Positions 14,185-50,295 of a stretch of DNA of 64,000 nucleotides are shown one piece after another. Numbering within the stretch: position 1 is the first letter of the stretch; every line of letters starts with the position of its first letter. A program made the translations under genes and the position numbers. The notes beneath the pieces were generated by a model. It did no database searches. It had not been told where the DNA came from and saw only the letters and a list, made by a program, of their open reading frames with translations. Origin of the DNA: Clostridiales bacterium (GTDB lineage: Bacteria; Bacillota; Clostridia; Oscillospirales; Oscillospiraceae); the NCBI GenBank assembly GCA_021202515.1, contig JAJQCW010000043.1, positions 62,001-126,000 on the forward strand. The letters are read 5' to 3'.

Positions 14185-14319
14185 AAAAACACTCCGGCAG
14201 AGTTTGGAAACGGCTGTCTGCGGCACACAACAGGGTCCGCTTAAGGCTGCTCGGTTCCCCGCCTGACCTGGTTCACGGTCTGCCGTTGCGCAGGACCGTC
14301 TCTTCGCCCCGCCGGAGCT
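14185..14319 (-). ncRNA. ffs: Signal recognition particle RNA (small bacterial type)
   Basis: RNA core of the SRP that binds Ffh. On the minus strand the conserved apical domain reads GGTCAGG, CGG, GGAA, CCG, AGCAGCC: symmetric loop, short stem and GGAA tetraloop (bases 14255-14258). The outer helix pairs GCTCCGGC at the 5' end with GCCGGAGT at the 3' end, followed by TTTTT. The start is set by the promoter at 14327-14355; the length is about 135 nt, without an obvious Alu domain. Location upstream of dnaX is typical of Firmicutes. Confidence 0.92.
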
Positions 14320-21966: not shown

Positions 21967-22180
21967 AAAACCCCTCCGCCGTCAAGCGGCACTTCCAGGG
22001 CTTCGCCCCTCCCTGCGCCACCGCCTAAAGGCGGCGGCCCTCCTCCCTCGTCGCCGCAGACTTCATAGCGTTCGCCCTGCCACTTGTGGCAGGGTTCACT
22101 TATTCCGTTGCGGCTCCTCCCCCAATCGAACCCGCTTCGCTGGGCTTCGATTGGGTTCCATCGGAAAGTAAGAGGGGTGA
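21967..22180 (+). repeat. Dispersed structured element C, copy 1
   Basis: About 214 bp beginning AAAACCCCTCCGCC and ending near GTAAGAGGGGTGATTAG. It carries the shared blocks GGCGGCGGCCCTCCTCCC, hairpin CCCTGCCAC/GTGGCAGGG (22075-22083 with 22086-22094) and hairpin CCCAATCGAA/TTCGATTGGG (22121-22130 with 22146-22155). It is the most divergent copy, with an extra CTTCCAGGGCTTCGCCCCTC stretch near the start. The rest of 22181-22350 is AT-rich with nothing recognised. Confidence 0.8.
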
Positions 22181-22351
22181 TTAGTAACCGATTAGCGATT
22201 TTCTGTGGAAAACTTGTACTATACCAGCCAAAAGCTGTTTTCTAATTTCATTATACCATAAGAAATGAAAAAGGAAAGTCAAAAATGGCAGACCGAAATA
22301 ATTTAACAAAATACAGTGAAAAAGCGCGGCGCTTTTTGGAGATTGCTGTGG

Positions 22352-22381
22352 TTGTCTTGACAGCGCGAAATTTGGTATAAT
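22352..22381 (+). promoter_or_regulatory. Sigma-A promoter for serC
   Basis: -10 TATAAT (22376-22381) with -35 TTGTCT (22352-22357) at 18-base spacing; a perfect TTGACA at 22357-22362 is only 13 bases away and so is unlikely to be used with this -10. Confidence 0.65.
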
Positions 22382-22387
22382 AGCTCT

Positions 22388-22470
22388 TGCGTCCCAGAGG
22401 CCCGGCGAGTTTGAAGCCGTCAGCCGGGACCAATACACGCGGTGAGATTGAAACCGCAGGTTTGAAAGGA
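22388..22470 (+). promoter_or_regulatory. Structured 5' leader of serC (candidate)
   Basis: Between the predicted start (about 22388) and the ribosome site, two stems are visible: CCCGGC (22401-22406) with GCCGGG (about 22423-22428), the outer GTCCC also able to pair with GGGAC, giving alternative folds; and GCGGT with ACCGC around GAGATTGAA. No match to a riboswitch I know. Confidence 0.35.
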
Positions 22471-22480
22471 GATCCTCCCC

Positions 22481-23569
22481 ATGAGCGATCGCATCTACAA
22501 CTTTTCCGCAGGCCCTTCCATGCTGCCCCTCTCCGTGCTGGAAAAGGCTGGAGCCGAGATCACCAACTACCAGGGGTCCGGCATGTCCGTCATGGAGATG
22601 AGCCACCGGTCTAAGGTGTTCCAGAAAATTTTTGACGACACCAAGGCCAAGTTCAAGGCCCTGATGCACATTCCCGATGACTATGAGGTGCTGTTCCTAC
22701 AGGGCGGCGCGTCCTCCCAGTTCTCCGCCATTCCGCTGAACCTGATCGGCAAGACCGGCAAGGCGGATTACGCCGTCACCGGCAACTTTGCCACCATCGC
22801 CTACAAAGAGGCGAAAAAGTACGGCGACATCGCTGTGGCGGCCTCTTCTGAGGACAAAAACCACACCTATATTCCCACCCAGGAACAGCTTGTGGTTCGC
22901 CCGGACGCCTCTTATTTCTATTATTGCGCCAACAACACCATTTACGGCACCGAATGGCAGTATGTGCCGGAGACCGGCGATGTGCCGCTGGTGTGTGATA
23001 TGTCCTCCGATATTTGCAGCCGCCGGGTGGATGTCTCCAAATACGGCATCATCTACGCCGGGGCGCAGAAGAACCTGGCTCCTGCCGGTCTGACCATCGT
23101 CATCATCAAGAAGTCCCTGGCCGGTCACGAGCTGCCCTTCACCCCGCTGATGATGAACTACAAGACCATGATCGACAAGGATTCCATGTACAACACCCCT
23201 CCCTGCTGGTGCATTTACATGCTGGGCGAGGTGCTGACCTGGCTGGAGAGCATGGGCGGCGTGGAAGGCATGGAGAAAATCAAGCACGGCAAGGCCCAGA
23301 TGCTCTACGACGTGCTGGACAATTCCGCCCTGTTCCACTGCTGCGCCACCGACAAGGCCAGCCGCTCCGATATGAACGTCACCTTCCGCAGCGACTCCGA
23401 CGAGCTGGACAAAAAGTTCGTGGCCCAGGCCACCGAAGCGGGCTTTGTCAACCTGAAGGGCCACCGGAAGGTGGGCGGTATGCGCGCCTCCATCTACAAC
23501 GCCATGCCCGTGGAAGGCGTGGAAAAGCTGTGTGAGTTCATCAAGAAATTCGACAGGGAGAATGGTTAA
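22481..23569 (+). CDS. serC: Phosphoserine aminotransferase
   Basis: PLP enzyme converting 3-phosphohydroxypyruvate to O-phosphoserine. 362 residues starting MSDRIYNFSAGPSMLP, the family N-terminus; MEMSHRSKVF substrate loop; Schiff-base Lys in AGAQKNLAPAGLT (about K197); and GGMRASIYNAMP near the C-terminus. The start ATG has AAAGGAGATCCT upstream. Followed after 214 bases, mostly repeat C2, by serA, so the two serine-pathway genes are adjacent in reverse pathway order. No serB is seen here. Confidence 0.97.
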   Translation: MSDRIYNFSAGPSMLPLSVLEKAGAEITNYQGSGMSVMEMSHRSKVFQKIFDDTKAKFKALMHIPDDYEVLFLQGGASSQFSAIPLNLIGKTGKADYAVTGNFATIAYKEAKKYGDIAVAASSEDKNHTYIPTQEQLVVRPDASYFYYCANNTIYGTEWQYVPETGDVPLVCDMSSDICSRRVDVSKYGIIYAGAQKNLAPAGLTIVIIKKSLAGHELPFTPLMMNYKTMIDKDSMYNTPPCWCIYMLGEVLTWLESMGGVEGMEKIKHGKAQMLYDVLDNSALFHCCATDKASRSDMNVTFRSDSDELDKKFVAQATEAGFVNLKGHRKVGGMRASIYNAMPVEGVEKLCEFIKKFDRENG

Positions 23570-23589
23570 TACCGCTTTGTGAATCGTGC

Positions 23590-23692
23590 TGATTATTCCG
23601 TTTGCTCAGCCATGTGGCAAAAACCCCTCCGCCACCGCCCAAAGGCGGCGGCCCTCCTCCCCTTTCAGGGGAGGCAAGGGGGATTGTGCTTG
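23590..23692 (+). repeat. Dispersed structured element C, copy 2 (internally deleted)
   Basis: 103 bp with both ends of the element (GATTATTCCG...CTCAGCC and AAACCCCTCCGCCACCGCC at the left; GGGGAGGCAAGGGGGATTG at the right) but lacking the two central hairpins present in copies 1, 3 and 4. It lies between serC and serA. Confidence 0.8.
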
Positions 23693-23783
23693 ACATTTGG
23701 TCAACGATTTTGTTCAGGCCAGTATATTTCAGGCTGATGCAAAAGGCACACAACAGAAATTCCCTGATTTTGGAGGAACCGTC

Positions 23784-24950
23784 ATGTATCGCATCAAAAC
23801 AATGAACAAAATCGCCGCTGCGGGTCTGAACCAACTGCCCAAGGAGCGGTATCAAATCTCCGACGAGTTTGAGCAGTACGAAGGGGCCATCGTCCGCTCT
23901 GCCAAACTCCACGGGATGGACTTCCCCCCGGAGCTGCTGGCAATCGCCCGCGCCGGTGCCGGCACCAACAACATCCCCATCGACCGCTGCAACAAGGCCG
24001 GCATCGTGGTCTTTAACACCCCCGGCGCCAACGCTAACGCCGTGAAGGAGCTGGTCATCGCCTCCATGCTCTACAGCAGCCGTGACATCATGGGCGGCGC
24101 GGACTGGGTCAAGGAACAGGTGGCCGCCGGGGTGGACGTGACCACCGTGGTGGAAAAGGGCAAATCCGCCTTCGCCGGACCGGAGCTGGCGGGTAAGACC
24201 CTGGGCATCATCGGTCTGGGGGCCATCGGCGCGAAGGTGGCCAACGCCTGCATCGCCCTGGGCATGAAGGTCATCGGCTACGACCCCTTCCTCTCCGTGG
24301 ACGCCGCTCTGGGGCTGGACATCCACGTGAAGCACACCACCGACCTGGATGTGATCTATCGCAACAGCGACTATATCACCATCCACATCCCCTACAACAA
24401 GGAGACTGCCAACACCATCGACGCAGAGGCCATCTCCAAGATGAAGGGCGGCGTGCGGCTCATCAACCTGGCCCGGGGCGGCCTGGTGAACAACGACGCG
24501 ATCATCGCCGGGCTGGAGTCCGGACATGTGGCCAAGTACGTCACCGACTTCCCGGATAACCAACTGATGGCCTGCAAAAACGTCATCGGCACCCCCCACC
24601 TGGGCGCTTCCACCCCGGAGAGCGAGGAGAACTGCGCTGTCATGGCCGCCCAGCAGTTGAAGGATTACCTGGAGAACGGCATCATCGTCAACTCGGTCAA
24701 CATGCCCCAGGTCAAGCTGCCCCGCAGCGGCCTGTGCCGGGTGTGCGTCATCCACCGCAACGTGCCCACCATCCTGACCGCCATTATGTCCTCCTTCTCC
24801 GCCGCTGGAATGAACATCGAGAACATGGTCAACAAGTCCCGCAAGGAGATGGCGTACACCGTGGTGGACCTGGACACCCGCGTCAGCGAGTCCATGGTGA
24901 ACACCATCGCCAGCCTGCCCAATGTCATTCGGGTGCGGGCGTTGCAGTAA
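23784..24950 (+). CDS. serA: D-3-phosphoglycerate dehydrogenase (short form)
   Basis: NAD-dependent first step of serine synthesis. 388 residues: split substrate domain, Rossmann NAD domain with GIIGLGAIGAKVAN (about 142-155), catalytic Arg in NLARGGLV and His in GTPHLGAST, and a C-terminal ACT domain (CVIHRNVPTILTAI onward) for likely serine feedback. The position where most relatives read VFxxEP, containing the catalytic Glu, reads VTDFPDNQL here. The start ATG 23784 has TGGAGGAAC upstream; a longer in-frame reading into the repeat is rejected. Followed by a terminator. Confidence 0.95.
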   Translation: MYRIKTMNKIAAAGLNQLPKERYQISDEFEQYEGAIVRSAKLHGMDFPPELLAIARAGAGTNNIPIDRCNKAGIVVFNTPGANANAVKELVIASMLYSSRDIMGGADWVKEQVAAGVDVTTVVEKGKSAFAGPELAGKTLGIIGLGAIGAKVANACIALGMKVIGYDPFLSVDAALGLDIHVKHTTDLDVIYRNSDYITIHIPYNKETANTIDAEAISKMKGGVRLINLARGGLVNNDAIIAGLESGHVAKYVTDFPDNQLMACKNVIGTPHLGASTPESEENCAVMAAQQLKDYLENGIIVNSVNMPQVKLPRSGLCRVCVIHRNVPTILTAIMSSFSAAGMNIENMVNKSRKEMAYTVVDLDTRVSESMVNTIASLPNVIRVRALQ

Positions 24951-24970
24951 AACCCCACATTTTCACATTT

Positions 24971-25009
24971 AAAGACCCTCGCTGTCTGAAAAGCAGCGGG
25001 GGTCTTTTT
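24971..25009 (+). terminator. Terminator after serA
   Basis: Stem AAAGACCCTCGCTG / AGCAGCGGGGGTCTTT with T run; between convergent genes. Confidence 0.9.
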
Positions 25010-25020
25010 GGCTTCGTTTG

Positions 25021-25239
25021 TTATTTCTTCTTCGGTTCCTTCAAAAAATCCAGCTCAAACGGCGGGTCCAGCTCTTTGGGGACATACTGGCCGTTTTTAA
25101 TGCGCTGTTTGATGCACTCGGTCAGCAGGTACTCGATTTGTCCGTTCACCGAGCGGAAGTCGTCCTCCGCCCAGGCGGCGATGGCGTTATAGAGCTTAGG
25201 GGAGAGCCGGAGGGGAACCTGTTTCTTGGGTTCTGCCAT
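25021..25239 (-). CDS. Ribbon-helix-helix (Arc-type) DNA-binding protein
   Basis: 72 residues. The N-terminal strand KKQVPLRLSPKLYNAI is a standard RHH ribbon, followed by AAWAEDDFRSVNGQIEYLLTECIKQR (two helices; the VNGQIEYLL turn is typical of Arc-like repressors) and a basic/acidic tail. Three bases after the SPFH gene stop, so co-translated with it. A palindrome overlaps the -10 of this two-gene operon (26264-26288), so autoregulation by this protein is a reasonable inference. No toxin gene accompanies it. Confidence 0.85.
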   Translation of the reverse strand: MAEPKKQVPLRLSPKLYNAIAAWAEDDFRSVNGQIEYLLTECIKQRIKNGQYVPKELDPPFELDFLKEPKKK

Positions 25240-25242
25240 AGG

Positions 25243-26244
25243 TCAATAGAGGCTGCCGGAGTTGACGATGGGCTGGGCGTCCCGGTTGCCGCAGAGCACC
25301 ACCAACAGGTTGGACACCATGGCCGCCTTCCGCTCTTCGTCCAACTGCACCACGTCGTTTTCGTTGAGCCGCTCCAGGGCCATTTCCACCATGCCCACAG
25401 CGCCGTCCACGATCATCTTCCGGGCGTCGATGATGGCCGACGCCTGCTGACGCTGGAGCATGACAGCGGCGATCTCCTGGGCGTAGGCCAGGTAGGTGAT
25501 GCGGGCCTCCACGACCTCAATGCCCGCCTCGTTGACCCGCTGCTGAATTTCCTCCCGGATACGGCTGGCAACTACCTCGCTGGACCCCCGCAGGCTGCCC
25601 TCGTCGGGGACGCCGTCGCCGGTGGTGTCCACGTTGGGGGCCACGTCGTAGGGGTAGAGCCGGACGATGTTCCTAAGGGCGCTGTCGCACTGGAGGGAGA
25701 GGAACTCCTTGTAGTTATCCACGTTAAAGACGGCCTTGGCGGTATCCACCACTCGCCAGGTGACGGCGATTCCAATTTCCACCGGGTTGCCCAGGCAGTC
25801 GTTGATCTTCTGCCGTGAGTTGTTCAGGGTCATGATTTTCAGCGAAATGCGCTTGCCGTCGGAGTCGTTGGGCGAGCTGTCTGCCTCACCGCCAGCAGCT
25901 TTTTTGAAGAAGCTCTTCACGTCTCCGCTCTGGCTCAGCTTGGTGTAAGCGGCAGGATTCACCGCCGAACAGAAGGGGTTGACCCAGTAGAACCCCTCCC
26001 CTTTCAGCGTGCCGATGTACTTGCCGAACAAGGTCAGCACCAGCGCCTCCTGAGGCTTGAGCACCTTCAAGCCCAAGAGAGGAATCCAGGCCACACACAG
26101 CAGAACGATGGACAGGAACAGTGCCCAATCCGTGAAGGAGAAAATAGACCAGAGCAACAGGGCTACGAGCGCCAAGAGCAAAACGATATTCCCCAGCAGC
26201 ATGGGCATTCCCAGCTTGCGGGCCGTCAAGATTTTTTCTTCCAT
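25243..26244 (-). CDS. SPFH/band-7 domain membrane protein
   Basis: 333 residues. Two N-terminal membrane helices (about 15-35 and 41-58), then a band-7 domain ([22 protein letters not shown] onward) to about residue 290, with helical [25 protein letters not shown] characteristic of stomatin/flotillin-like proteins. A charged insertion ([16 protein letters not shown]) lies in the middle. Such proteins scaffold membrane domains or protease complexes. The start is ATG 26244, seven bases after GGAGGT; the ATG five codons earlier is part of that box. Paired with an RHH protein, an arrangement whose purpose is not known to me. Confidence 0.9.
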
Positions 26245-26263
26245 GACGGATACCTCCATATCT

Positions 26264-26288
26264 TTATGATATCAAAAAGATATCATAA
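26264..26288. promoter_or_regulatory. Perfect palindromic operator of the SPFH-RHH operon
   Basis: Arms TTATGATATC and GATATCATAA (10 bp each, no mismatch) separated by AAAAA. It covers the -10 and start region of the promoter at 26277-26305. RHH repressors bind such symmetric sites, and one is encoded in the operon. Confidence 0.75.
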
Positions 26289-26305
26289 CAGAGCTGTCCT
26301 GTCAA
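26277..26305 (-). promoter_or_regulatory. Sigma-A promoter for SPFH-RHH operon
   Basis: -35 TTGACA (26300-26305), 17-base spacer, -10 TATCTT (26277-26282) on the minus strand; the -10 lies inside the palindrome. Confidence 0.65.
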
Positions 26306-26341
26306 GGGGGTTCGAGAAAAATTTCGGCGGATATCGAACGA

Positions 26342-26370
26342 TTGACATTATCTGAAATTGAGCTTATACT
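26342..26370 (+). promoter_or_regulatory. Sigma-A promoter for the sirtuin gene
   Basis: -35 TTGACA (26342-26347), 17-base spacer, -10 TATACT (26365-26370); near-consensus, about 50 bases before the ATG. Confidence 0.8.
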
Positions 26371-26421
26371 ATAGCAAAAGAGGGTTCTTAAAACGCAAGA
26401 TTCTGAAAGGATGTGAACACG

Positions 26422-27159
26422 ATGGACAACACCAGAGAACTCGAAACCTTGCAGCAGTGGATCGACGACAGCGACAACATCGTCTTTTTCGGCGGGGCGG
26501 GCGTCTCCACCGAGAGCGGCATCCCCGACTTCCGCAGTCAGGATGGGCTGTACAACCAGAAGTACGACGAGCCGCCGGAGACCATCATCTCCCACACCTA
26601 TTTCATGCGCAAGCCGGAGAAGTTCTACCGGTTTTACAAAGACAAGATGATCGCCCCGGACGCCAAGCCCAACGCCGCCCACAAAAAGCTGGCGGAGCTG
26701 GAGCAGGCTGGGAAGCTGCGGGCCGTCATCACCCAGAACATCGACGGCTTGCACCAGGACGCGGGCAGCAAAGAGGTGCTGGAGCTGCACGGCAGCGTTC
26801 GCCGGAACGACTGCATGAAGTGCGGTGCCCACTTCGACGGAGTGGACATCGTCCTGAACAGCTCCGGGGTCCCCAAGTGTCCCCGCTGCGGCGGCACCAT
26901 CAAGCCGGACGTAGTTCTCTACGAAGAGGGGCTGGACGACACCACCCTTTACCGTGCGGTGGACTACATCCGGGCCGCAGATGTGCTCATCGTGGGCGGG
27001 ACCTCCCTGGTGGTCTACCCCGCCGCGGGCCTCATCAACTACTACCGGGGCCACAAGCTGGTACTCATCAACCTCCAGCCCACCGGCTACGACCGGCAGG
27101 CCGATTTGGTCATCGCCGGAAAAATCGGCCAGGTGCTGGGCCAAATTCAGGTGCGGTAG
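26422..27159 (+). CDS. NAD-dependent protein deacylase (Sir2 family)
   Basis: Removes acyl groups from protein lysines using NAD. 245 residues with the sirtuin motifs in order: GGAGVSTESGIPDFRS (NAD binding), TQNIDGLH, catalytic His in ELHGSV, and the zinc ribbon CMKCG...CPRCGG, then VGGTSLVVYPAAGL. The Ala-Tyr-Arg pocket that marks desuccinylases (SIRT5/CobB type) was not found, so deacetylase activity is likelier. The start is ATG 26422, ten bases after AAAGGA; the GTG three codons earlier is too close to it. Own promoter and terminator, so monocistronic. Acetyl-CoA synthetase is not nearby. Confidence 0.95.
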   Translation: MDNTRELETLQQWIDDSDNIVFFGGAGVSTESGIPDFRSQDGLYNQKYDEPPETIISHTYFMRKPEKFYRFYKDKMIAPDAKPNAAHKKLAELEQAGKLRAVITQNIDGLHQDAGSKEVLELHGSVRRNDCMKCGAHFDGVDIVLNSSGVPKCPRCGGTIKPDVVLYEEGLDDTTLYRAVDYIRAADVLIVGGTSLVVYPAAGLINYYRGHKLVLINLQPTGYDRQADLVIAGKIGQVLGQIQVR

Positions 27160-27192
27160 CACAGCAGACCACAAACTCTCATGTAGTCAAAC

Positions 27193-27226
27193 GACCCCCG
27201 CCGGGAGACCGGCGGGGGCATTTTTG
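27193..27226 (+). terminator. Terminator after the sirtuin gene
   Basis: Stem CCCCCGCCGG / CCGGCGGGGG with loop GAGA, followed by CATTTTTG; between convergent genes. Confidence 0.9.
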
Positions 27227-27238
27227 CATCTTTTGGGG

Positions 27239-28033
27239 TTACAGCGGCCTTCTGGCAGAGCGGACCGGCAACTGCCGCCGCACTTCTTCCACGAGGTCGA
27301 GGTTCAGTTCTACGTCCAATGCACCCGGCTCCGTCCCCGCCTGGGCCACCACGTCCCCCCAGGGGTCGCAGACGATGGAGTGGCCGTAGGAGACGTAATC
27401 GGCGCTGAGATTCTGGGCGGGAGCGGCTCCCAGGGTATAAAGCTGGTTGTCCACCGCCCGGCTGCGGAACAGCAGCTCCCAGTGGCGGGGTCCGGTGGTG
27501 CGGTTGAATGCGGCGGGGACGAACATCGCCTTTGCCCCCAGGTCCGCCGTTCTCTCGAAGAGGGCGGGGAACCGCAGGTCAAAGCAGACCGCCAAGCCAA
27601 AGACGCCGAACTCCGTCTCAAACACGGCGGGAGCCTCGCCGGGGGAAAGGGTCTCCGACTCCATAAAGTGCTGTCCCCCGTCGATGTGGATGTCAAACAG
27701 GTGCATTTTTCGGTAACGGGTCGCCTGCCGGCCCTGCCGGTCAAAGACGAAACAGGTGTTATAAATGCGCTCCCCTTCCCGTTCCGGGAAGGTCCCCCCT
27801 ACCAGCCAAATCTGGTTAGCCCGGGCCATGGCGGAGAGCGCCTGCCAGATGGAGCCGCCCGCCTCCTCCGCATAAACGGGGAATTTTTGGGTGTCGTAGG
27901 GGCAGCAGAACATCTCCGGCAGCACAGCCAGGTCTGCGCCCCGCGCTTTGGCGGCGGCCACCGCCTGGGCTGCGGCGGTCAGGTCACGGGGCTTCTCCCC
28001 GGTTACGAGCTGTTGCAGCAAACTGACTTGCAT
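27239..28033 (-). CDS. Carbon-nitrogen hydrolase (nitrilase/omega-amidase-like)
   Basis: Nitrilase-superfamily amidase. The Glu-Lys-Cys triad is visible: E40 in AVLPEMF, Lys in YRKMHLFDI and Cys in GLAVCFDLRFP. 264 residues. The FDIHIDGG loop after the Lys and NRTTGPRHWELL fit the Nit2/omega-amidase branch, which deamidates alpha-ketoglutaramate, but substrate assignment is inference. The ATG at 28033 has GGAGGT seven bases before it. A heptad-ended element begins 18 bases upstream of the start codon, so any native promoter has been displaced or is supplied by the element. Confidence 0.88.
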   Translation of the reverse strand: MQVSLLQQLVTGEKPRDLTAAAQAVAAAKARGADLAVLPEMFCCPYDTQKFPVYAEEAGGSIWQALSAMARANQIWLVGGTFPEREGERIYNTCFVFDRQGRQATRYRKMHLFDIHIDGGQHFMESETLSPGEAPAVFETEFGVFGLAVCFDLRFPALFERTADLGAKAMFVPAAFNRTTGPRHWELLFRSRAVDNQLYTLGAAPAQNLSADYVSYGHSIVCDPWGDVVAQAGTEPGALDVELNLDLVEEVRRQLPVRSARRPL

Positions 28034-28050
28034 AAAAACACCTCCAATAT

Positions 28051-28246
28051 AATTTGCAATGTACAATGTGCAATGACCAAAACCAAACACGTATTGTTTC
28101 ATGCCCAATGCGCACAGCTTACACCCATAGCGAAAACTTGTTGCACGGTGCCCAAGTTGCTATCACGCACATTTTCTGAAATAAGACCCCTATAAACGCA
28201 AAAACGGGCAAAAATTGCACATCACTAATTGCACATTGCTAATTGA
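28051..28246 (+). repeat. Heptad-ended element B2 (MITE-like)
   Basis: About 196 bp. Left end: TTTGC then AATGTAC, AATGTGC, AATGACC; right end inverted: ATTGCAC, ATCACTA, ATTGCAC, ATTGCTA, ATTG. No gene inside. It occupies most of the divergent gap between the nitrilase and HAD genes; its right end overlaps the -35 of the HAD promoter. Confidence 0.7.
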
Positions 28247-28264
28247 AGCCAAATCTGTTATACT
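28236..28264 (+). promoter_or_regulatory. Promoter for the HAD phosphatase gene, -35 inside repeat end
   Basis: -35 TTGCTA (28236-28241), 17-base spacer, -10 TATACT (28259-28264). The -35 falls in the last heptads of element B2. Confidence 0.6.
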
Positions 28265-28307
28265 GGCTCCAGCCAAGAAAAATTCCGCTCCAAAGGAGGC
28301 ATGTCCC

Positions 28308-29192
28308 ATGGCAGTCCAGTTCCAGCGAAAGCACAAAGAGGACCGACCTGTGTTGGCCATTTGTTACGACTTCGACAAGACCCTCTCTCCCGATGATATG
28401 CAGGCCCAGGGATATATTCAGTCCGTGGGCTACGATGTGGACGCCTTCTGGGCAGAGTCGTCCGCCATGGCCCGGGCCAACGGCATGGACAGCAACCTGG
28501 CCTATATGTACAAGATGGTGAAAGAGGCCGAGGGACGCTTTCTGTTCAACCGGGAGACCCTGGCGGAATATGGCTCCAAGGTAGCCCTGTTCCCCGGCGT
28601 AGAGGGGTGGTTTGAGCGCATCCGCGCCTATGGCCGAGAGCAGGGGGTCATCGTGGAGCACTATATCCTCTCCTCCGGTCTGAAAGAGATAATCGAGGGC
28701 ACAAGAATTGCCCGGGCAGGTGCGTTTGAAAAAATCTATGCCAGTTGCTTTTTCTACGATGAGAACGGCATTGCCCAGTGGCCCGCTCAGGCCGTCAACT
28801 ACACCAGCAAGACGCAGTTTTTGTTTCGCATTGAGAAGGGGGTGCTGGATGTCAACGACCCCGGCGTCAACGACTTTTTCCCGCCGGATCAAAAGCGGGT
28901 GCCCTTCCGCAACATGGTTTACATCGGGGACAGCGACACCGACATCCCCTGCATGAAGCTGGTGAACACCTACGGCGGCCACTCCATCGGCGTCTACGAC
29001 CCCGCCACCAATGACCGGGCCAAGGTACACCGGATGCTCTGCGACGACCGGGTGCGCTACATCGCTCCCGCCGACTACTCCGAAGGCTCTGAGCTGGACC
29101 GACTGCTGCGGGCTATTATCGCCAAGACCGCAGCCTATGAGCGGCTGGAGGAAAAGCACGTTAAGGATTACGCCGAAGCAAAGAATACTTAA
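28308..29192 (+). CDS. HAD-superfamily phosphatase
   Basis: Cytoplasmic haloacid-dehalogenase-type hydrolase of unknown substrate. 294 residues. Motif I ICYDFDKTLSPDD (about 18-30, nucleophile Asp), motif II SSG (about 125), motif IV GDSDTDIPCM (about 206-215). A long cap (about 35-120) lies between motifs I and II. The start ATG 28308 has AAAGGAGG nine bases before it; the upstream in-frame extension comes from the repeat element and is rejected. Monocistronic. Confidence 0.85.
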   Translation: MAVQFQRKHKEDRPVLAICYDFDKTLSPDDMQAQGYIQSVGYDVDAFWAESSAMARANGMDSNLAYMYKMVKEAEGRFLFNRETLAEYGSKVALFPGVEGWFERIRAYGREQGVIVEHYILSSGLKEIIEGTRIARAGAFEKIYASCFFYDENGIAQWPAQAVNYTSKTQFLFRIEKGVLDVNDPGVNDFFPPDQKRVPFRNMVYIGDSDTDIPCMKLVNTYGGHSIGVYDPATNDRAKVHRMLCDDRVRYIAPADYSEGSELDRLLRAIIAKTAAYERLEEKHVKDYAEAKNT

Positions 29193-29364
29193 ATTTGGTT
29201 ATTTGCGCCGATTATGTAAACATATCCGCCGTGTAAAGTGGAATTGCTTGTCGATATTCTCAACTGCTGCACCTTGCGAAACCGAAGGCAAAAAGGGCCG
29301 CGAAACATGGGTCGCAATCCGTAAAGTCAATATCCTTTACGGTAAGTTTGCGTATCCTATCACA

Positions 29365-30819
29365 TTACAGCAACGACATCCCCAGCCCCACTACCAGGGA
29401 CAGCGCGCCGGAGAGGGCCAGCAGCGTGATCTTTTTCAGGTGGAACCGACTGAACAGGTACTGATCCAAGGCGAAGATGGCGATGGACACCACCCCACCC
29501 ATCAGCGGCGGCCAGTTGTACTCTACTCCGATGGAGAGATTTTCGTAGAACATGGAGAGGGCCACGCTGAGCAGCAACCCCACGATGATGGGCCGTATCC
29601 ACCGGCGCAGCAGGTCAAAAAAGCTGATGCGTTCAAAGGTGCTGTACAGGTGGAACACCGCAATGAAAATCAGGCCCGACGACGTGATGGAACAGGCCAG
29701 GCCGGTCACGGCCACCATCCAGCCCCCCAGCACGGTGCCGGTGATATGATAACCCACATAGTACCCGATGCCGCTGAGGGTCTTGCACAGGATGGAACCT
29801 GGCAGGGCATTGACAACGGGGACCAACTGGTTGTAAAATTCGGAGCTGGAAATCATGCCGTCCGCTACGAAGATGCCGTCCGCCACCGCCAGGTAAGCGT
29901 CGCCCCCACCGAAGGAGATAACCGCCGACAGCAGCGCCTTGGGGATGAACAGCGGTGCATCCTGGAAGAAGAAAAGCGCCGGGATGGACAGCACTACCAG
30001 AAACAGCAGCCACGCCCCCACGTCCTTGACCAGCGGCTTCACGTCCAGGGTCACATCCTGGTTGCGGTTGCGCCCGTCCCGGTAGTAACAGACCATACTG
30101 AACACGCTGAGCAGCACCATGACAGTTTTAATCAGGTTCAATGAGCCGTCAAAGCTGATGAATTTCCAGTTGCTGATGCGCAAAATATAGAGGACGGCGA
30201 CCACCACGGCGATGGGCCACCGCCGCCTGCTGCTCCAGTGACCTCCCACATAGAAAATCAGGAAAAATGCGATAGCCAGCACGTTGATGGTGGAGAGCTG
30301 GAACAGCGGGGAGCCATCCAGCCCCAAAATTTTGTAAAAATTCTTCGCGCCGGTCAACAGAAAGACCAGTGCAATGATGAGGTAAACTCCCCACGCCGGC
30401 AGGTCCTGCGTGCTCTCTTTCACGGTGCTGCGGATGTAAATGCCCAGCAGAAAGACGATGTAGGCGGAGATGCCGATGGAGACATAGACCAGCCAGGTCA
30501 GCATGGCCCCGCTGATTTGCGTCAGCAGGGACACCAGCGCCACCGTCAGCAGCGCGCCGGGCAGCGCCATGGCCGTGGCGGAGAGGATCATGCCCCGGGT
30601 CCCCGCCACCTGACGGCCTACGCCGGTGGCGATCTCCACCGGCAGCGCGCCGGGGGTAATGCTGGCCACCACTACGTCCTTGTTGAACTGGTCGCTGGTG
30701 ACTTCGATGTCAGAGTCCTTCAACTCCTCCTCAATGACCGGGATGAGGGCGGTGCCGCCGCCGTACCCCCAAAAGCCAATGCTTAACATTCCCTTGACAA
30801 GGGACCCTATCTTACCCAT
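29365..30819 (-). CDS. Chromate transporter family (ChrA) membrane protein
   Basis: 484-residue polytopic membrane protein with two CHR-like halves: GFWGYGGGTALIPVIEEE and ITPGALPVEIATGVGRQVAG in the first, SFGGGDAYLAVADGIF and LPGSILCKTLSGIGYYVG in the second. These match the FGGG and PGP-like motifs of ChrA. Many ChrA homologues in anaerobes probably carry other anions, so chromate export is not certain. The start ATG has GGGAGGAAC upstream. Own promoter (30897-30925). The 172-base gap downstream (29193-29364) has only a CCGTAAAG/CTTTACGG hairpin (about 29319-29343) without a T run. Confidence 0.85.
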   Translation of the reverse strand: MGKIGSLVKGMLSIGFWGYGGGTALIPVIEEELKDSDIEVTSDQFNKDVVVASITPGALPVEIATGVGRQVAGTRGMILSATAMALPGALLTVALVSLLTQISGAMLTWLVYVSIGISAYIVFLLGIYIRSTVKESTQDLPAWGVYLIIALVFLLTGAKNFYKILGLDGSPLFQLSTINVLAIAFFLIFYVGGHWSSRRRWPIAVVVAVLYILRISNWKFISFDGSLNLIKTVMVLLSVFSMVCYYRDGRNRNQDVTLDVKPLVKDVGAWLLFLVVLSIPALFFFQDAPLFIPKALLSAVISFGGGDAYLAVADGIFVADGMISSSEFYNQLVPVVNALPGSILCKTLSGIGYYVGYHITGTVLGGWMVAVTGLACSITSSGLIFIAVFHLYSTFERISFFDLLRRWIRPIIVGLLLSVALSMFYENLSIGVEYNWPPLMGGVVSIAIFALDQYLFSRFHLKKITLLALSGALSLVVGLGMSLL

Positions 30820-30896
30820 ACTCGTTCCTCCCGTCCCGCGCCGCCGCGCCTGGAAAAGAATCTCAAAGTCTGCTTTGGTCCATAATAAACAGCATT

Positions 30897-30925
30897 ATTA
30901 TAGCGGCTTGTTGTGGACGCCGCAA
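30897..30925 (-). promoter_or_regulatory. Sigma-A promoter for the ChrA-type gene
   Basis: Minus strand -35 TTGCGG (30920-30925), 17-base spacer, -10 TATAAT (30897-30902). The divergent gene at 30986 may use overlapping sequence; no clear plus-strand promoter was identified. Confidence 0.65.
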
Positions 30926-30985
30926 TGGAGGAATTGCAAAATATTTATGAATTGTTTGACTTCTTTTCAGACAGGAGCGAATAAA

Positions 30986-31486
30986 ATGTCCAAAAATATC
31001 GTTCTGGTGGGAATGCCCGCCTCCGGCAAAAGCACCATTGGCGTTATCCTTGCCAAGGAGCTGAAATACCGCTTTACCGACACCGACCTGGTCCTCCAGG
31101 AGGCCACCGATCAGACCCTGGTGGAGATCATCGTCCAGCGGGGGCTGGAGGGGTTCCTCCAGTTGGAAAACGACACTGTGGCCGCACTGGAGGCCCGCCG
31201 CTCGGTCATCGCCACCGGTGGCAGCGTCATCTATGGCCAGGAGGCCATGGAGCATTTGAAGGTCAACGGCATCATCGTCTATATCCGGCACCGGTACGAG
31301 GTCATCCAGTCCCGGCTGACCAACATCACCACCCGCGGCGTGGCCATGCGGGAGGGTGAGACCCTCTACGACCTGTTCCGGGAGCGGACACCCCTCTATG
31401 AGCGGTACGCCGACGTGACGCTGGAGGCCGACGGCCTGACCACCGAGCAGGCGGTGCAGGAGATCATTCGACTGGTGAAGGGTTAA
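30986..31486 (+). CDS. Shikimate-kinase-like P-loop kinase, atypical substrate site
   Basis: 166-residue P-loop kinase of the AroK fold: Walker A GMPASGKST (9-17), DTDLVLQEATDQTL in the acceptor-binding region, ATGGSVIYG, and lid/C-terminal ERTPLYERYAD with Arg. In classical AroK the sequence after the DTD segment reads FRxxE with an Arg that holds shikimate, and the glycine motif is GGG; here it reads FLQLEN and GGS. So the ATP site is intact but shikimate-contacting residues are altered. There is no aro gene nearby. The ATG has CAGGAG upstream. It may be a divergent shikimate kinase or a kinase for another small molecule. Confidence 0.75.
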   Translation: MSKNIVLVGMPASGKSTIGVILAKELKYRFTDTDLVLQEATDQTLVEIIVQRGLEGFLQLENDTVAALEARRSVIATGGSVIYGQEAMEHLKVNGIIVYIRHRYEVIQSRLTNITTRGVAMREGETLYDLFRERTPLYERYADVTLEADGLTTEQAVQEIIRLVKG

Positions 31487-31490
31487 ACCA

Positions 31491-31702
31491 GTTATCTCTT
31501 TTACTCAGCCTTCCGCTGGAAACCCCTCCGCCACCGCCTAAAGGCGGCGGCCCTCCTCCCTCGTCGGCGTGGACTTCATATCCCTCGCCCCGCCGCAAGC
31601 GGCAGGTCTCGTCCATTCCGTCACGCCTCCTCTCCCAGCCAAACCCGCTTTGCTGGGCTTGGCTGGGTTCCCATTAGGGAGGCAAGAGGCGATAGTGCTT
31701 GT
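31491..31702 (+). repeat. Dispersed structured element C, copy 3
   Basis: 212 bp starting GTTATCTCTTTTACTCAGCC, only four bases after the preceding stop codon, and ending GATAGTGCTTG. Hairpin CCCAGCCAA/TTGGCTGGG (31634-31642 with 31659-31667); an upstream short hairpin with arms near CCGCCGC/GCGGCAGG. Closest to copy 4. The remaining 31703-31803 is AT-rich with nothing recognised. Confidence 0.85.
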
Positions 31703-31803
31703 CGATTTGTACCGTTTTTGTTCGGCAAATGTGGAATTATAGTGCAAATTTTCCTTTCTCGCTACTAAATTAAGCGGCTGATTCAACGGGATAGTCCGAA
31801 AGA

Positions 31804-32781
31804 TTAATCCTCCAGGAACGTCAAAATTTCCTCCATGAACTGGCCCACAATGGGGGTTTCGCTGCGGAAAATCTCATGTCGGGCGGTGGGGAACGTTACT
31901 TTCCGCCCGTTGGGGAGTTGGGCAATAAAGCGGTCCTGGGCCTCGTTTTTCACCATGGTATCCTGTCCCGCCTGGAGCAGCAGCACCGGCAGACGCAGGT
32001 TGGCGCAGCGGTCCGACTGCATCAACTGCTTCGTCACCAGCAGCGACTCCCTCAGCCAGCAGTAGGTGGCGGCGTTGTTCTGGTACTGCTCGTGCTCCCG
32101 CTGCACCTGGAGATACCAGCAGTAGCGGGCGTAAGAGGTTGCGCAGGCCCAGTCACCGTCAAAGTCCTCCTCACCGGTGAACACCCGCTGGTTAAAGAGG
32201 CAGTCCTTCCCCTTGCCAATGGCGATAAAGAACCGGGCCAGGAACAATGCCACACCGAACGGGACCCCCTGGGTCTTGGGGGCGATCATGGGGCTGCACA
32301 GCACCAGCTTCTCCACCGGCAGCTCCGGGAACAGCTCCAGCGTCAGCGCGGCAATGGCCCCGCCCATGGAGTGGCCCAGCAGGTACACCGGCAGGCCCTC
32401 CGCCTGGTGGACCACCACCTCTCGCAGAAAATAACGGTAGTCCTCGCAGTAGTCGGTGAACTTGTCCACGTGGGTCAGCCACAGCTCCGGCACCTGGCGG
32501 AAGGAGTTGCCGTGGCCCCGGTGGTCGCAGATGGCCACACTGTACCCCGCCTGGAGGAAGTACCAAATCACCTCGGCGTATTTGACTGTCGCCTCCTCAA
32601 ACCCGTGGGAGATGGCCACCCATCCCTTTGCCTCTGGCTGGCGGTACAGCTCGTAATAAATCGTCTCGCCGGGGTTCCGCGCAAAGGTTCCGGTGGTTTT
32701 GACCTTCGCCAGTTCCTCTGTCACCCGCCCGATCTGGGCGGGGTAGTCCTGTTCGGACAGTAGTTCAAACGGGAAACGCAT
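31804..32781 (-). CDS. Alpha/beta hydrolase (serine aminopeptidase/lysophospholipase-like)
   Basis: 325-residue soluble hydrolase of the S33/monoglyceride-lipase type. Nucleophile elbow GHSMGG (about 135-140), oxyanion segment WVAISHGFEE, DHRGHG (about 93-98), the acid in LLLQAGQDTMV and the final His in PTARHEIFRSE. No signal peptide. Start ATG with GCAGGAGGTC upstream. Substrate unknown; lysophospholipids or monoacylglycerols are typical for close motif relatives. Stands alone, transcribed away from the LRR cluster. Confidence 0.88.
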   Translation of the reverse strand: MRFPFELLSEQDYPAQIGRVTEELAKVKTTGTFARNPGETIYYELYRQPEAKGWVAISHGFEEATVKYAEVIWYFLQAGYSVAICDHRGHGNSFRQVPELWLTHVDKFTDYCEDYRYFLREVVVHQAEGLPVYLLGHSMGGAIAALTLELFPELPVEKLVLCSPMIAPKTQGVPFGVALFLARFFIAIGKGKDCLFNQRVFTGEEDFDGDWACATSYARYCWYLQVQREHEQYQNNAATYCWLRESLLVTKQLMQSDRCANLRLPVLLLQAGQDTMVKNEAQDRFIAQLPNGRKVTFPTARHEIFRSETPIVGQFMEEILTFLED

Positions 32782-32894
32782 TGGTATGACCTCCTGCGAT
32801 ACATTTTAATAGTATAACCATACCACAAAACCGGGTTGCGGGCAAGCGTGGAACTGCTCCCTTACCCGCGGCGCAAAAAATGGGCAAAAACCCA

Positions 32895-32923
32895 TTGTAT
32901 CCTGCGGGCGTTTTGTATATAAT
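32895..32923 (+). promoter_or_regulatory. Sigma-A promoter for the LRR-VWA cluster
   Basis: -35 TTGTAT (32895-32900), 17-base spacer, -10 TATAAT (32918-32923), about 45 bases before the predicted start. Confidence 0.7.
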
Positions 32924-32975
32924 AATGGTTTGGAATTGAGATTCAACGCAAGTTGCAGAAAGGGCGGCGGACGCT

Positions 32976-34127
32976 TTGCAGTGGCGCATCTACTATACAA
33001 TCGAAAACGGCGAGGCGACAGTCACCCGCTGCGTGGGCGACCAGCCCCGGCTGGCGCTGCCGGACGAGCTGGAGGGCTGCCCGGTCACCGGGTTGGGGCC
33101 GGATTGCTTCGCCGGGACCGCCCCGGCGGACGCTTGCGAGGCGCCGGCTCCGGTCTACCTGCGGGAGACGCCACCTCCAGCCAAGTTTTATAAAAACCAG
33201 ACGCTGAAACACCTGACTTTGCCCGCGCCCCTGCGCAGGGCGGGAGCGCGGTGCTTCACCCAGTGCGCCGCCCTGCCCCGGCTGGAGCTGCCAGCGGGCC
33301 TGCGGGAGCTGGGCGAGCGGTGCTTCTACGGCTGCGGTGGGCTGGAGCATCTGGAACTGCCGGAGGGCATCGAGGCCCTCCCAGACTACACCTTTGCCGA
33401 GTGCCGCAAGCTGAAACGGGTCTCCCTCCCCCACAGCGTCCGCACCATTGGCCGCTGCTGCTTCTACAACTGCACCCACCTGGAAAAGTTGGACCTGCCC
33501 GACAGCCTGGAGGCCATTGGGGACCGGATGCTGATGAACTGCTTCGAGCTGAAAGAGCTGTCCTTCCGCATCGGGGTCAACGGCGGCGCGCTGCTGGCAG
33601 AAATCGACCGGGTCATGCGGGTGCGGGTGCGTTACCCGGAGGAGACGGTAGAAGTGGTGCTGACCGAGTACGCTTTGGAGTACGAGGAACTGATTCAGGC
33701 CAAGCAGTTCCGCACCAACGAGACCGGCAGCGGCGGCCTGTACCGGGGCTGTTTTAGCGACCGGGACGTGGATTTCGCCCTGTACGATACCTATTTTTAC
33801 GCCGCCAAGCTCCAGGACCCGCCGGAGCTGCTGGCCGAGCTGGCCTTTGACCGGCTGCGCTGGCCCAGGGAACTGCGCCCCGCCAGGGAGCAGGAGTATT
33901 GGGACTTTTTAAAGTCCCATATCCCGGAACTGACCGCCTTCCTGCTGGGTCGGGACGACCTGGAGGGGCTGGAATTCCTGCTCTCCACCGGCAGGCTGGA
34001 CGGAGACGACCTGAACCAAATGCTGGAACGGGCGGAGCAGGCGGAAAACGTCCGCTTCGTCAGCCGTCTGCTGGAGGCCGCCGGACACCGTCCCCGCTCC
34101 GGCGCGGACAAGCTGTTTGAACTGTGA
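32976..34127 (+). CDS. Leucine-rich-repeat (BspA/LRR_5-type) cytoplasmic protein
   Basis: 383 residues with no signal peptide or membrane helix. After a strand-rich start (IYYTIENGEATVTRC) come four to five LRR_5 repeats of about 23 residues (about 75-190) of the form LxxLxLPxGLxxLGxxCFxGC, e.g. LRELGERCFYGCGGLEHLELP. The C-terminal half is helical and unlike any domain I recognise, ending in ankyrin-like GRDDLEGLEFLLSTGRLDGDDLNQML. The start appears to be TTG at 32976 with a weak AAAGGG site, so the N-terminus is uncertain. Seven bases upstream of the VWA gene, it heads the LRR-VWA-MoxR cluster. Most BspA-type LRR proteins are secreted; this one is not. Confidence 0.75.
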   Translation: MQWRIYYTIENGEATVTRCVGDQPRLALPDELEGCPVTGLGPDCFAGTAPADACEAPAPVYLRETPPPAKFYKNQTLKHLTLPAPLRRAGARCFTQCAALPRLELPAGLRELGERCFYGCGGLEHLELPEGIEALPDYTFAECRKLKRVSLPHSVRTIGRCCFYNCTHLEKLDLPDSLEAIGDRMLMNCFELKELSFRIGVNGGALLAEIDRVMRVRVRYPEETVEVVLTEYALEYEELIQAKQFRTNETGSGGLYRGCFSDRDVDFALYDTYFYAAKLQDPPELLAELAFDRLRWPRELRPAREQEYWDFLKSHIPELTAFLLGRDDLEGLEFLLSTGRLDGDDLNQMLERAEQAENVRFVSRLLEAAGHRPRSGADKLFEL

Positions 34128-34134
34128 GGTGGCT

Positions 34135-35490
34135 ATGGCGTCAAATCGTGAACGGCTGGAGCGGCTGGGCAGCGCCATTCTGTCCGCCTCCCGAAACGAG
34201 CTTTATTTTTCCATGCGGTTTCTGGACATCGCCCTCAGCGGCCTGGACTACCGCATGAACCTGAACACCGTCACCGTGGGGACAGACGGTATCAGCATCC
34301 TGTTTAACCCCACCTATTTGCAGCGGGTCTACCGGGACGACCTGGTGGAGCTGAACCGGGTCTATCTCCACATGATCCTCCACTGTATGTTCCGCCACGA
34401 GCTGAACCGGGAGGGCCGGGACGAGGATCTGTGGACGGTGGCTTGTGATATCGCCGTGGAGTCCATTTTGGACGGCATCGAAAACCGCTCCATCCAGCTC
34501 TCCATTTCCACCTTCCGGGAGGAGACTTACGACTGGCTGAGCGAAGAGTGTCCCGTGCTGACGGCGGAGGCCATTTACCGAGCGCTGGAGCGGCGGCAGG
34601 TCCAGTATCTGGACATCCTGCGGCTCAAGCAGGAGTTTTTGCGGGACGACCACCAGTTTTGGCAGGACGACGACCCCGGCCAGGACGAATCCCAGCAGCA
34701 GGAGGATTCCGACAGCCCGGACAGCCGCGCCCAGCAGGAGCGGCGGCGAGAGGTGGAGGCCAAGTGGAAGCGCATCGACGAAAAGACCCAGACCAACCTG
34801 GAGACCTTTTTCGCCGGACACGGGGACGAGATGGGGGGACTGCTCAAGTCCATCCAAATCGAGAACCGGGAGCGGTACGACTACCGGGCCTTTCTCCGCC
34901 GGTTCGTCACCCTCCGGGAGGAGGTCAAAACCGACCCGGACTCCTTCGACTACGCCTTTTACAGCTACGGGCTGGAACTGTACGGCAACATCCCCCTCAT
35001 CGAGCCGCTGGAATACCGGGAGAGCCGGAAGATACGGGATTTCGTCATCGTCATCGACACCTCCGACTCCTGCTCGGACGGCATCATCGAGCGGTTCCTC
35101 TCCGAGACGCGGGCCATTCTCAACCAGGAGAGCGCCTTTTTCCGGGAGATGAACCTGCACATCATCCAGAGCGACGCCGGAGTGCAGATGGACACGGTGC
35201 TTCACAGCCCGGAGGAATTTGACCAATTCTCCCGAAACTTCACCGTCAAGGGCTACGGCGGCACCGACTTCCGCCCCGCCTTCGACTACGTGGCAAACCT
35301 CCAGGCCCAGGGCCAATTGGCGGAGCTGAAAGGGCTGCTGTACTTCACCGACGGCTTTGGAACTTATCCGCAAAAGAAGCCGCCCTACGACACCGCTTTC
35401 GTTTTTTTCCGGGAGGAATACACCGACGCGCAGGTCCCCCCCTGGGCCATGAAGGTGGTGCTGGGGCCAGATGAACTGCAAGAGATATAA
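34135..35490 (+). CDS. DUF2201-type putative metallopeptidase with C-terminal VWA-like domain
   Basis: 451 residues. The N-terminal half resembles the DUF2201 metallopeptidase-like domain (VYLHMILHCMFRHELNREGR around residues 80-100, a His-rich helix where relatives have a HxxxH arrangement). A charged linker (about 180-215, DDPGQDESQQQEDSDS) leads to a C-terminal VWA-like domain with a MIDAS-like FVIVIDTSDSCSD (about 303-315) and YGGTDFRPAF. The MIDAS reads DTSDS rather than DxSGS. The ATG follows GAGGTGGCT. Functionally linked to the downstream MoxR ATPase, the usual partner of such proteins. Confidence 0.85.
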   Translation: MASNRERLERLGSAILSASRNELYFSMRFLDIALSGLDYRMNLNTVTVGTDGISILFNPTYLQRVYRDDLVELNRVYLHMILHCMFRHELNREGRDEDLWTVACDIAVESILDGIENRSIQLSISTFREETYDWLSEECPVLTAEAIYRALERRQVQYLDILRLKQEFLRDDHQFWQDDDPGQDESQQQEDSDSPDSRAQQERRREVEAKWKRIDEKTQTNLETFFAGHGDEMGGLLKSIQIENRERYDYRAFLRRFVTLREEVKTDPDSFDYAFYSYGLELYGNIPLIEPLEYRESRKIRDFVIVIDTSDSCSDGIIERFLSETRAILNQESAFFREMNLHIIQSDAGVQMDTVLHSPEEFDQFSRNFTVKGYGGTDFRPAFDYVANLQAQGQLAELKGLLYFTDGFGTYPQKKPPYDTAFVFFREEYTDAQVPPWAMKVVLGPDELQEI

Positions 35491-35528
35491 GAAATTCTGA
35501 CGCTCCCCCTGAATCTGCCGTATTATTT

Positions 35529-35551
35529 TAGTGGCTAGTGATTAGTGGCTA
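35529..35551 (+). repeat. Short 7-bp-periodic array
   Basis: Units GTGGCTA, GTGATTA, GTGGCTA in tandem, 7-bp periodic like the ends of the heptad elements but without a partner end. It lies between the VWA gene and repeat C4. Confidence 0.5.
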
Positions 35552-35608
35552 GAAAGAGGGGGTTCTAATAGAAATTCTACATCTGTCGGACAAAATTGAC
35601 ATCAGACA

Positions 35609-35823
35609 ACAAGCACTATCCCCTCTTGACTCCCTAATAGGAACCCAGCCGAAGCCCAGCGACAGCGGGTTCGGTTGGGAGAGGAACCGCAGCCGGAATG
35701 AACGAACTTTCGCGCTTTGCGCGGAAGAGAACGATATGGAGCTTGCGGCGACGAGGGAGGAGGGCCGCCGCCGCAGGCGGTGGCGGAGGGGTTTCTAGCA
35801 TAGGGCTGCGTAAAAGAGATAAC
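35609..35823 (-). repeat. Dispersed structured element C, copy 4 (inverted)
   Basis: 215 bp in the opposite orientation to copies 1-3; on the minus strand it starts GTTATCTCTTTTACGCAGCC and ends GATAGTGCTTG. Hairpin CCCAGCCGAA/TTCGGTTGGG (35644-35653 with 35670-35679). It separates the VWA and MoxR genes and gives the MoxR frame a spurious N-terminal extension. The rest of 35491-35841 shows only the short heptad array. Confidence 0.85.
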
Positions 35824-35841
35824 CAAAAAGGGAAAAATGAT

Positions 35842-50204: not shown

Positions 50205-50295
50205 TGGCGCAGAAGGAGGGATTTGAACCCTCGCGACGGTCTCCCGCCCTACACCCTTAGCAGGGGCGCCTCTTCGGCCACTTGAGTACTTCTGC
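50205..50295 (-). tRNA. tRNA-Ser (anticodon GCU), CCA encoded
   Basis: 91 bases including genomic CCA. Acceptor GCAGAAG / CTTCTGC, discriminator G, anticodon loop CTGCTAA, T arm GAGGGTTCAAATCCCTC, and the long variable arm (GGGCGGGAGACCGTC region) of type II tRNA-Ser. Second gene of a two-tRNA transcript. Confidence 0.95.

Follow-up and report, generated by a model that had tools for sequence, protein, structure and literature searches.

The window copies and the wider family

The window analysed here is a 64,000-nucleotide stretch of a Clostridiales bacterium (assembly GCA_021202515.1, contig JAJQCW010000043.1, positions 62,001 to 126,000 of the forward strand), and it carries four copies of an intergenic element with a GC-rich core made of hairpins. 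A preliminary description had placed the copies at 21967-22180, 23590-23692, 31491-31702 and 35609-35823, and all four are present there, with a mutual similarity far above chance. In pairwise sequence comparison, copy 3 matches copy 4 at 80.6% identity over 216 bp (E 1.4e-48), copy 1 at 78.3% over 166 bp (E 1.7e-36) and copy 2 at 82.6% over 69 bp (E 3.9e-15). The arm changes already described between copies are also found, and the AGCCG/CGGTT arms of copy 4 include one G-T wobble.

The base form of the core is AACCCCTCC, a hairpin in slot 1, and then CCTCCCC-TTTCA-GGGGAGG-CAAGAGG, which contains hairpin 2. The GC-rich core is enclosed by AT-rich arms and, at the ends, by 22-bp terminal inverted repeats, CTGGTTATCCCTTTGAATCAGC. 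Further hairpin modules, S, D and E, occur in many copies. The features in window coordinates are:

21967-22180, plus strand: copy 1, a frame core with modules S and E and no recognisable terminal inverted repeats
21978-22016, plus strand: module S of copy 1, 39 bp, between AACCCCTCC and the slot-1 hairpin
22017-22038, plus strand: slot-1 hairpin of copy 1, GCCACCGCC-TAAA-GGCGGCGGC
22048-22155, plus strand: module E of copy 1, 108 nt, with three covarying helices
23589-23754, plus strand: copy 2, a plain element, with terminal inverted repeats at 23589-23610 (6 mismatches) and 23733-23754 (7 mismatches)
23631-23652, plus strand: slot-1 hairpin of copy 2
23656-23674, plus strand: hairpin 2 of copy 2, CCTCCCC-TTTCA-GGGGAGG, a site occupied by D, E or S in other copies
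31488-31798, plus strand: copy 3, with terminal inverted repeats at 31488-31509 (5 mismatches) and 31777-31798 (4 mismatches); absent from the orthologous place in L230
31530-31551, plus strand: slot-1 hairpin of copy 3
31561-31667, plus strand: module E of copy 3, 107 nt
35497-35826, minus strand: copy 4, with terminal inverted repeats at 35805-35826 (5 mismatches) and 35497-35518 (7 mismatches)
35764-35784, minus strand: slot-1 hairpin of copy 4, with a 3-nt loop
35644-35754, minus strand: module E of copy 4, 111 nt; the orthologous L230 element has a plain CTTTCA loop there

The ends quoted in the preliminary description are not the true ends, since the terminal inverted repeats set copies 2, 3 and 4 at the wider limits above. 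The far ends of copies 2 and 4 mismatch at 7 of 22 positions, a laxity that gives 12 matches in the window, 6 of them away from these copies, so these two ends are placed by position and direction. Short AT-rich repeats such as AATTAGCAATGTGCAATG and TAGCCACTAATCACTAGCCACTA adjoin many elements, for example at 35540-35580 of the window.

The window copies are a small part of a large family. With copy 3 as query, the window's own genome of 2.63 Mb yields at least 47 matches (40 of 172 candidates scored). Many of these span just the first 70 and last 27 bases, so the layout of copy 2 is a common form. Pattern searches find the 5' core at 145 places (up to 2 mismatches; 10 for the control) and the 3' core at 132 (up to 1 mismatch; 1 for the control). 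The 122 stretches that were taken out (346,554 bases) hold 139 5' cores and 126 3' cores, which form 115 pairs with zero overlaps; 35 of the 150 core entries are left unpaired, and three of the 83 listed stretches (contig C80) fall outside the counts. Copy 2 had been called internally deleted, but 37 of the 115 paired elements likewise have a slot-1 hairpin only, as judged by a core length of 40-42 or 45-46. The 212-bp length first reported is that of a frame core plus module E.

The distance from the 5' to the 3' core is stepped (40-42, 45-46, 49, 54-55, 74-76, 78-81, 84-85, 118-129, 155-163, 174, 194-197, 221 and 297), because hairpin modules occupy fixed slots. Slot 1 holds either module S or one of several unrelated hairpins, mainly GCCACCGCC/GGCGGCGGC, ACCATGC/GCATGGT and GTCGCGGC/GCCGCGCC. 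Module S is 33 or 39 bp long, D 76-79 and E 107-111. D lies within the TTT^CA loop of hairpin 2, E replaces that loop, and S sits in the frame after CTCC on either arm. A CCTTT flank precedes 28 of the 43 D-like starts, and most of the other 15 resemble chance matches. D is also found at non-frame sites with other left flanks, three in own contig C23 and one common to loci L160 and L211.

Some relatives of the element depart from this plan. L297 (own C49, near 42397) is a nearly symmetric 154-bp element in which two different slot hairpins flank a central hairpin, bounded by AACCCCTCC and its reverse complement. In own contigs C6, C7, C13, C58 and C81 (near their ends) and C21, E and/or S lie inside a longer repeat, GCGCAC...E...TATGCGCACGTTTGGGGCCTCC-S-CTGTGTGC, mostly close to contig ends. 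An Rfam scan of two of these loci, L016 and L020, gives zero matches.

Frame ends, orthologous differences and module S

In the own genome, the pattern of the terminal repeats matches 52 ends at up to 3 mismatches, and the control matches none. Both repeats are recognised in 59 elements, 138-468 bp long, from the own genome and its relatives. An AT-rich target duplication of about 10 bp accompanies them: 15 of the 59 match at 8 or more of 10 flank bases, a level that 1000 shuffles reach in 0.64 elements on average and 5 at most; the offset was picked from a scan of the same 59 elements.

Orthologous places were compared with six metagenome-assembled genomes, the "Clostridiales bacterium" isolates C.1_13, AH.13_10, AH.3_3, C.4_4 and U_127109 and Oscillospiraceae bacterium Zagget6. 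The 105 loci of these relatives came from the matches listed, with one comparison per own locus and relative. Among those matches, an orthologous place exists for 47 of the 144 own loci with usable flanks, and in the resulting 58 comparisons the relative's place is empty in 17, has different modules in 28, has the same modules in 4 and shows no recognised module in 9. The empty places, defined as gaps no longer than 80 bases that contain neither core nor module, concern 15 own loci, among them window copy 3. Inspection of empty sites had been proposed in the preliminary description, and their presence supports mobility. A clean single target copy is in the minority among the 13 empty sites aligned.

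Orthologous copies differ by single modules. Copy 4 of the window (e122) has E where L230 has its plain loop, and the two are otherwise identical at 199 of 214 aligned bases. Element e31 carries D, plus an S-type insert, where L150 and L170 have CCCCTTTCAGGGG. Element e91 carries S and D and its counterpart L171 neither, and C3 has an S that L154 lacks. The slot-1 hairpin is swapped for an unrelated one in the pairs C28/L227 and C29/L245. Elements in opposite orientation are also seen at orthologous places (e12/L154, e12/L187, e13/L149, e15/L237, e33/L237, e48/L165, e72/L176 and e143/L182), reflecting either separate insertion or inversion through the terminal repeats.

The same terminal repeats also enclose other sequence. 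At L286 (own C49, near 20402) and L300 (own C57, near 30489) they surround a different palindromic cargo, GTAGGGGCGGCC...GGGCCGCCCCTAC. L300 has ATGAAATTTG in both flanks, and the alternative cargo of L286 contains a module S. The 20 regions around other terminal repeats hold four inward pairs, 154-355 bp, of which two carry other palindromic cargo and none is long enough for a transposase.

Module S has the layout [4-bp stem, loop TCAAG] ACTTCC [second hairpin] CTCCCTG plus one base. Of the 152 distinct contexts, 104 are in the frame, divided among three points as 38, 37 and 29; 9 are at two points of D, 10 come immediately behind the opening of another S, and 29 lie elsewhere, a few of these last being chance matches in genes or decayed frames. 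CTCC precedes S in 108 of the 152. S also stands at unrelated flanks, as in C14, C18, C26 and C46. The base before S is linked to the base after its final CCTG: among 119 distinct copies the combinations are C/C 81, C/T 0, T/C 20, T/T 14 and other 4 (Fisher p 3.9e-9). L302 (own C65, 22400-26400) has one E with three S, at ATATCC^CTCGC, CCATT^CCG and CTCCTCT^CCC, and comparison with the empty form of E finds the preceding base (C, T and T) repeated after each. In multi-S arrays, openings and closings form balanced brackets in 11 of 14. The orthologous S pair C36/L242 differs by a change from G-C to A-T on both arms. A pair of S-free and S-bearing forms at a unique non-frame site was sought between close relatives and none was found, all 13 orthologous S comparisons lying within elements. 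A search of viral contigs for module S gave 0 exact matches.

Of 40 genomes searched with a 26-base core pattern, 25 belong to the genus, counting the own genome, and 11 of these have it; the 15 from outside the genus do not. Module S is found in 20 of 32 genomes of the genus. At the level of the order, 17 of 295 genomes match S and 6 match a reversed control pattern; the 15 S-positive genomes outside the genus have 1-2 matches apiece, invariably with 2 mismatches. One of them, G235, belongs to a different genus of the same family and has two nested S at L319 (C24, 27103-28323), with the stem ACCG/CGGT compensated. In some genomes S is abundant and the core pattern rare (G018, 79 S and 7 cores; G002, 36 S and 1 core). 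These counts do not establish that S lives without frames, and all 13 S loci of G044 that were examined by reading lie in frames.

Mobility, pairing and orientation

These elements probably form a family of non-autonomous mini-transposons, with a frame like that of miniature inverted-repeat transposable elements (MITEs) and hairpin modules that are gained, lost or exchanged at set positions in the core. The frame would most likely be moved in trans by a putative DDE-type transposase. Its GC-rich core may serve as a landing pad of hairpins, at which S, D, E and the alternative slot-1 hairpins would come and go. S itself appears mobile; it would enter after a pyrimidine-rich site such as CTCC, usually repeating the preceding base behind it, and would nest in other modules and in itself. 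Movement of the modules may take place in a folded single-stranded state, as DNA or RNA, and their further spread is probably helped by gene conversion between copies. Pairing would then be kept because mobility needs it.

Several observations weigh against this explanation. The loci of the relatives were found by a pattern that requires a plain hairpin 2, which biases the comparisons toward differing modules: 20 of 21 comparisons differ where the relative's element carries the search pattern. In pattern-free comparisons 8 of 11 differ, and 5 of the 8 involve elements that face opposite ways and may reflect separate insertions or inversions, so the same-orientation remainder is 3 different and 3 same. 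The module differences are real; their turnover rate is not given by these samples, since the loci were chosen by the plain-loop pattern. All the genomes are drafts, and the relatives are metagenome-assembled. No transposase with the ends of the frame was found, and 18 transposase loci are without an inward-facing end pair. In the sequence examined, the sole inward pair 650-3500 bp apart (L248) also holds core motifs. An autonomous element with the same ends is absent from the stretches examined, which are less than the whole genome, and this lowers certainty only. For module S, we know of no enzyme. S preceded by T is followed by C in 20 of 36 cases and by T in 14, so one-base duplication is not the whole story; at those points of D and E whose empty form is known the preceding base is repeated, yet C stands behind these 20.

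A different account has the modules never inserting alone, with ancestral long elements shuffled by deletion and by gene conversion through the short identical flanks of the slots. The slot flanks are indeed alike between copies, D-like starts mostly stand behind CCTTT, the orthologous slot-1 swaps resemble conversion, and the S loci read in G044 all sit in frames. Shuffling would not readily place S at unrelated flanks, at two points in D, at three in E and inside S, nor D at four other sites. Of 19 E copies, 11 are judged from a reading of their flanks to be outside the frame. We keep shuffling as a tentative possibility. Equally tentative is a stronger proposal for module S, by which it is an element of 32 or 38 bp that spreads on its own within one bacterial genus. 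It would enter behind a CTCC-like site, duplicating one base, and re-enter itself between its two hairpins to give balanced-bracket arrays. An undescribed enzyme might move it by reading the folded hairpins and not the stem sequence, as suggested by the variation of both stems while pairing persists.

Pairing is well kept in E. The alignment holds 19 distinct copies (one of the 20 matches, without the 5' part, was left out), and RNAalifold predicts 29 pairs. Of the 549 cells, 97.3% pair, as against 80.1% when shuffled and 29-48% with the partner slid. Two-sided changes occur in 18 of the 29 pairs (13.4 shuffled), and the covariation score is 0.500 (0.192 shuffled); 0 of 500 shuffles reached the observed value for any of these three measures. 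Further pair types are below the shuffles, 24 versus 29.3. For S, the 41 distinct copies fit a 39-nt pattern that fixes TC[AG]AG, ACTTC and TCC[CT]TG and leaves the arms free, so the constancy of the fixed letters is partly by construction. Here 96.7% of cells pair (86.6% shuffled), with two-sided changes in 6 of 9 pairs (3.6), a covariation score of 0.360 (0.156) and 8 further pair types (8.6). The controls for both modules leave relatedness among the copies in. Within that limit covariation is present, and the copies were not found to be fragments of a known transposon or gene.

The covariation may have more than one source. Wobble cells are rare, with 2 G-U of 549 in E and 1 of 369 in S, and some E helices change as whole blocks. 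This pattern suggests that replacement of hairpins or palindrome-perfecting repair may explain part of the covariation, and either could imitate compensatory selection on pairing. In its strongest form the idea is that template switching or hairpin repair perfects imperfect palindromes with no selection on structure at all. Scarce wobble intermediates, blockwise change and the two-arm change in C36/L242 are as it would have them. It leaves the spread of modules and their bracket-like nesting unexplained, and as a full account it is rather doubtful; it may coexist with mobility. The preliminary description had proposed selection on structure, or mobility needing it. Mobility is borne out by the empty sites and by the presence or absence of modules, and pairing is kept in E and S, possibly by compensatory selection and possibly by hairpin swaps or repair.

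A functional structured RNA would offer another reason for pairing, with transcripts needing the hairpins as terminators, for mRNA stability or as non-coding RNA, and mobility being incidental. The strong covariation of E and S and the intergenic position agree with it. The elements show no preference in orientation relative to genes, with 47 versus 45 co-directional with both neighbours, 28 convergent and 16 divergent among 136 entries (of 150, one of which is double) whose neighbours were both called; the strand caller made no error on 43 pieces of its training genes. Fresh mismatches have no significant strand preference (A.C 36 versus G.T 21, p 0.063, with helix D_1 loosely matched), in a test that leaves out positions whose usual state is a mismatch. 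A minus-strand RNA had been considered from the slot-1 mismatches (A.C 38 versus G.T 8) and was dropped, as these are mostly one inherited A.C. Rfam at gathering score gives no match at the elements in the window or at five other loci, and unrelated hairpins replace one another in slot 1 of orthologous copies. There is no sign of a host function at the RNA level, and a functional RNA is an unlikely explanation of the family. Other RNA matches in the window, all on the minus strand, are a signal recognition particle RNA and three tRNA matches (14204-14302, 50208-50295, 50348-50433 and 63143-63228).

Candidate enzymes and known systems

The search for partner enzymes covered only the families PF01797, PF00078 and PF01609. 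A REP-type Y1 transposase had been suggested earlier, and a related scheme would make these REP/REPIN-like elements and have a Y1 (HUH) transposase move them by way of single-stranded DNA hairpins. The two hairpins of S, its short target motif and the lack of a long duplication do resemble IS200/IS605-type ends. The distribution of PF01797 (Y1/RAYT) runs the other way. It occurs in 7 of 32 congeners, in 1 of the 20 with S and 6 of the 12 without, and was not found in the five genomes richest in cores, namely the own genome G000 and the copy-rich congeners G001, G004, G015 and G022. The frame also has a 10-bp target duplication, which Y1 elements are not known to make. A Y1 origin is very improbable. 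Neither of the other candidates gained support as a partner: among congeners with and without S, respectively, the reverse transcriptase PF00078 is found in 10 of 20 and 6 of 12, and DDE_Tnp_1 (PF01609) in 7 of 20 and 6 of 12, with just a fragment in the own genome.

If the mini-transposon explanation is right, this family would be a bacterial counterpart of the mobile hairpins of mitochondria, for which we know of no mechanism yet. It has more than 100 copies in a genome and relatives with many flanks at 90-98% identity. Since before-and-after pairs exist for single modules, insertion rules would be directly readable, and the system would show the assembly of structured elements from tiny mobile hairpins. 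It would also account for the GC-rich intergenic repeats where several contigs of the draft genome start or stop. No description of such elements in these bacteria turned up in the literature searched, where microbiome papers dominated, which is weak evidence of novelty.

The nearest kinds of known element are MITEs, the BOX elements of pneumococcus and the GC clusters of yeast mitochondria. Like MITEs, these elements are short, non-coding and structure-forming, with terminal inverted repeats, an AT-rich target duplication and many intergenic copies. They differ in the GC-rich core of hairpin modules that varies between orthologous copies at fixed slots, and no partner transposase was found here. 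REP and REPIN sequences, with their RAYT transposase, are also small palindromic intergenic repeats in high copy; unlike these, the present elements are longer and modular, have a 10-bp duplication and come with no Y1 transposase that was found.

BOX elements of Streptococcus consist of boxA, a variable number of boxB and boxC, form hairpins, and have terminal repeats likened to those of ISSpn2, according to the parts of PMC3049150 consulted. By that description the present elements stand beside BOX, being composite and hairpin-forming, with end modules and optional middle modules. BoxB is a tandem array (PMC3049150, in part), whereas the modules here occupy several defined points on either arm and can lie within each other; all three of S, D and E are found outside the frame as well.

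Fungal and sponge mitochondria have small hairpin elements at many insertion places, and for those of Allomyces an RNA intermediate was suggested because flanking duplications are absent (PMC2800124, in part). These repetitive or double hairpin elements share with the present family the small hairpins and many insertion places. The family here is bacterial, with a modular frame and terminal repeats.

The GC clusters of yeast mitochondria are GC-rich mobile hairpins of 18, 42 and, when merged, 86 nt, with flanking repeats AG or ACT. Their changes are mostly in loops, the units merge and shuffle, stand-alone and merged forms occur at one site in different strains, and the mechanism is unsettled, as far as PMC4478555 was consulted. 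The terms "covari" and "compensatory" were not found in that paper; arm covariation is measured here. Both systems have small GC-rich hairpins, here apparently mobile, with merging units; a very short flanking repeat is seen here at part of the sites, 20 of 36 T-preceded S being followed by C. The present family differs in being bacterial, in its MITE-like carrier frame and in its bracket-like self-nesting. Without a claim of membership, module S appears to work like a yeast-type GC cluster.

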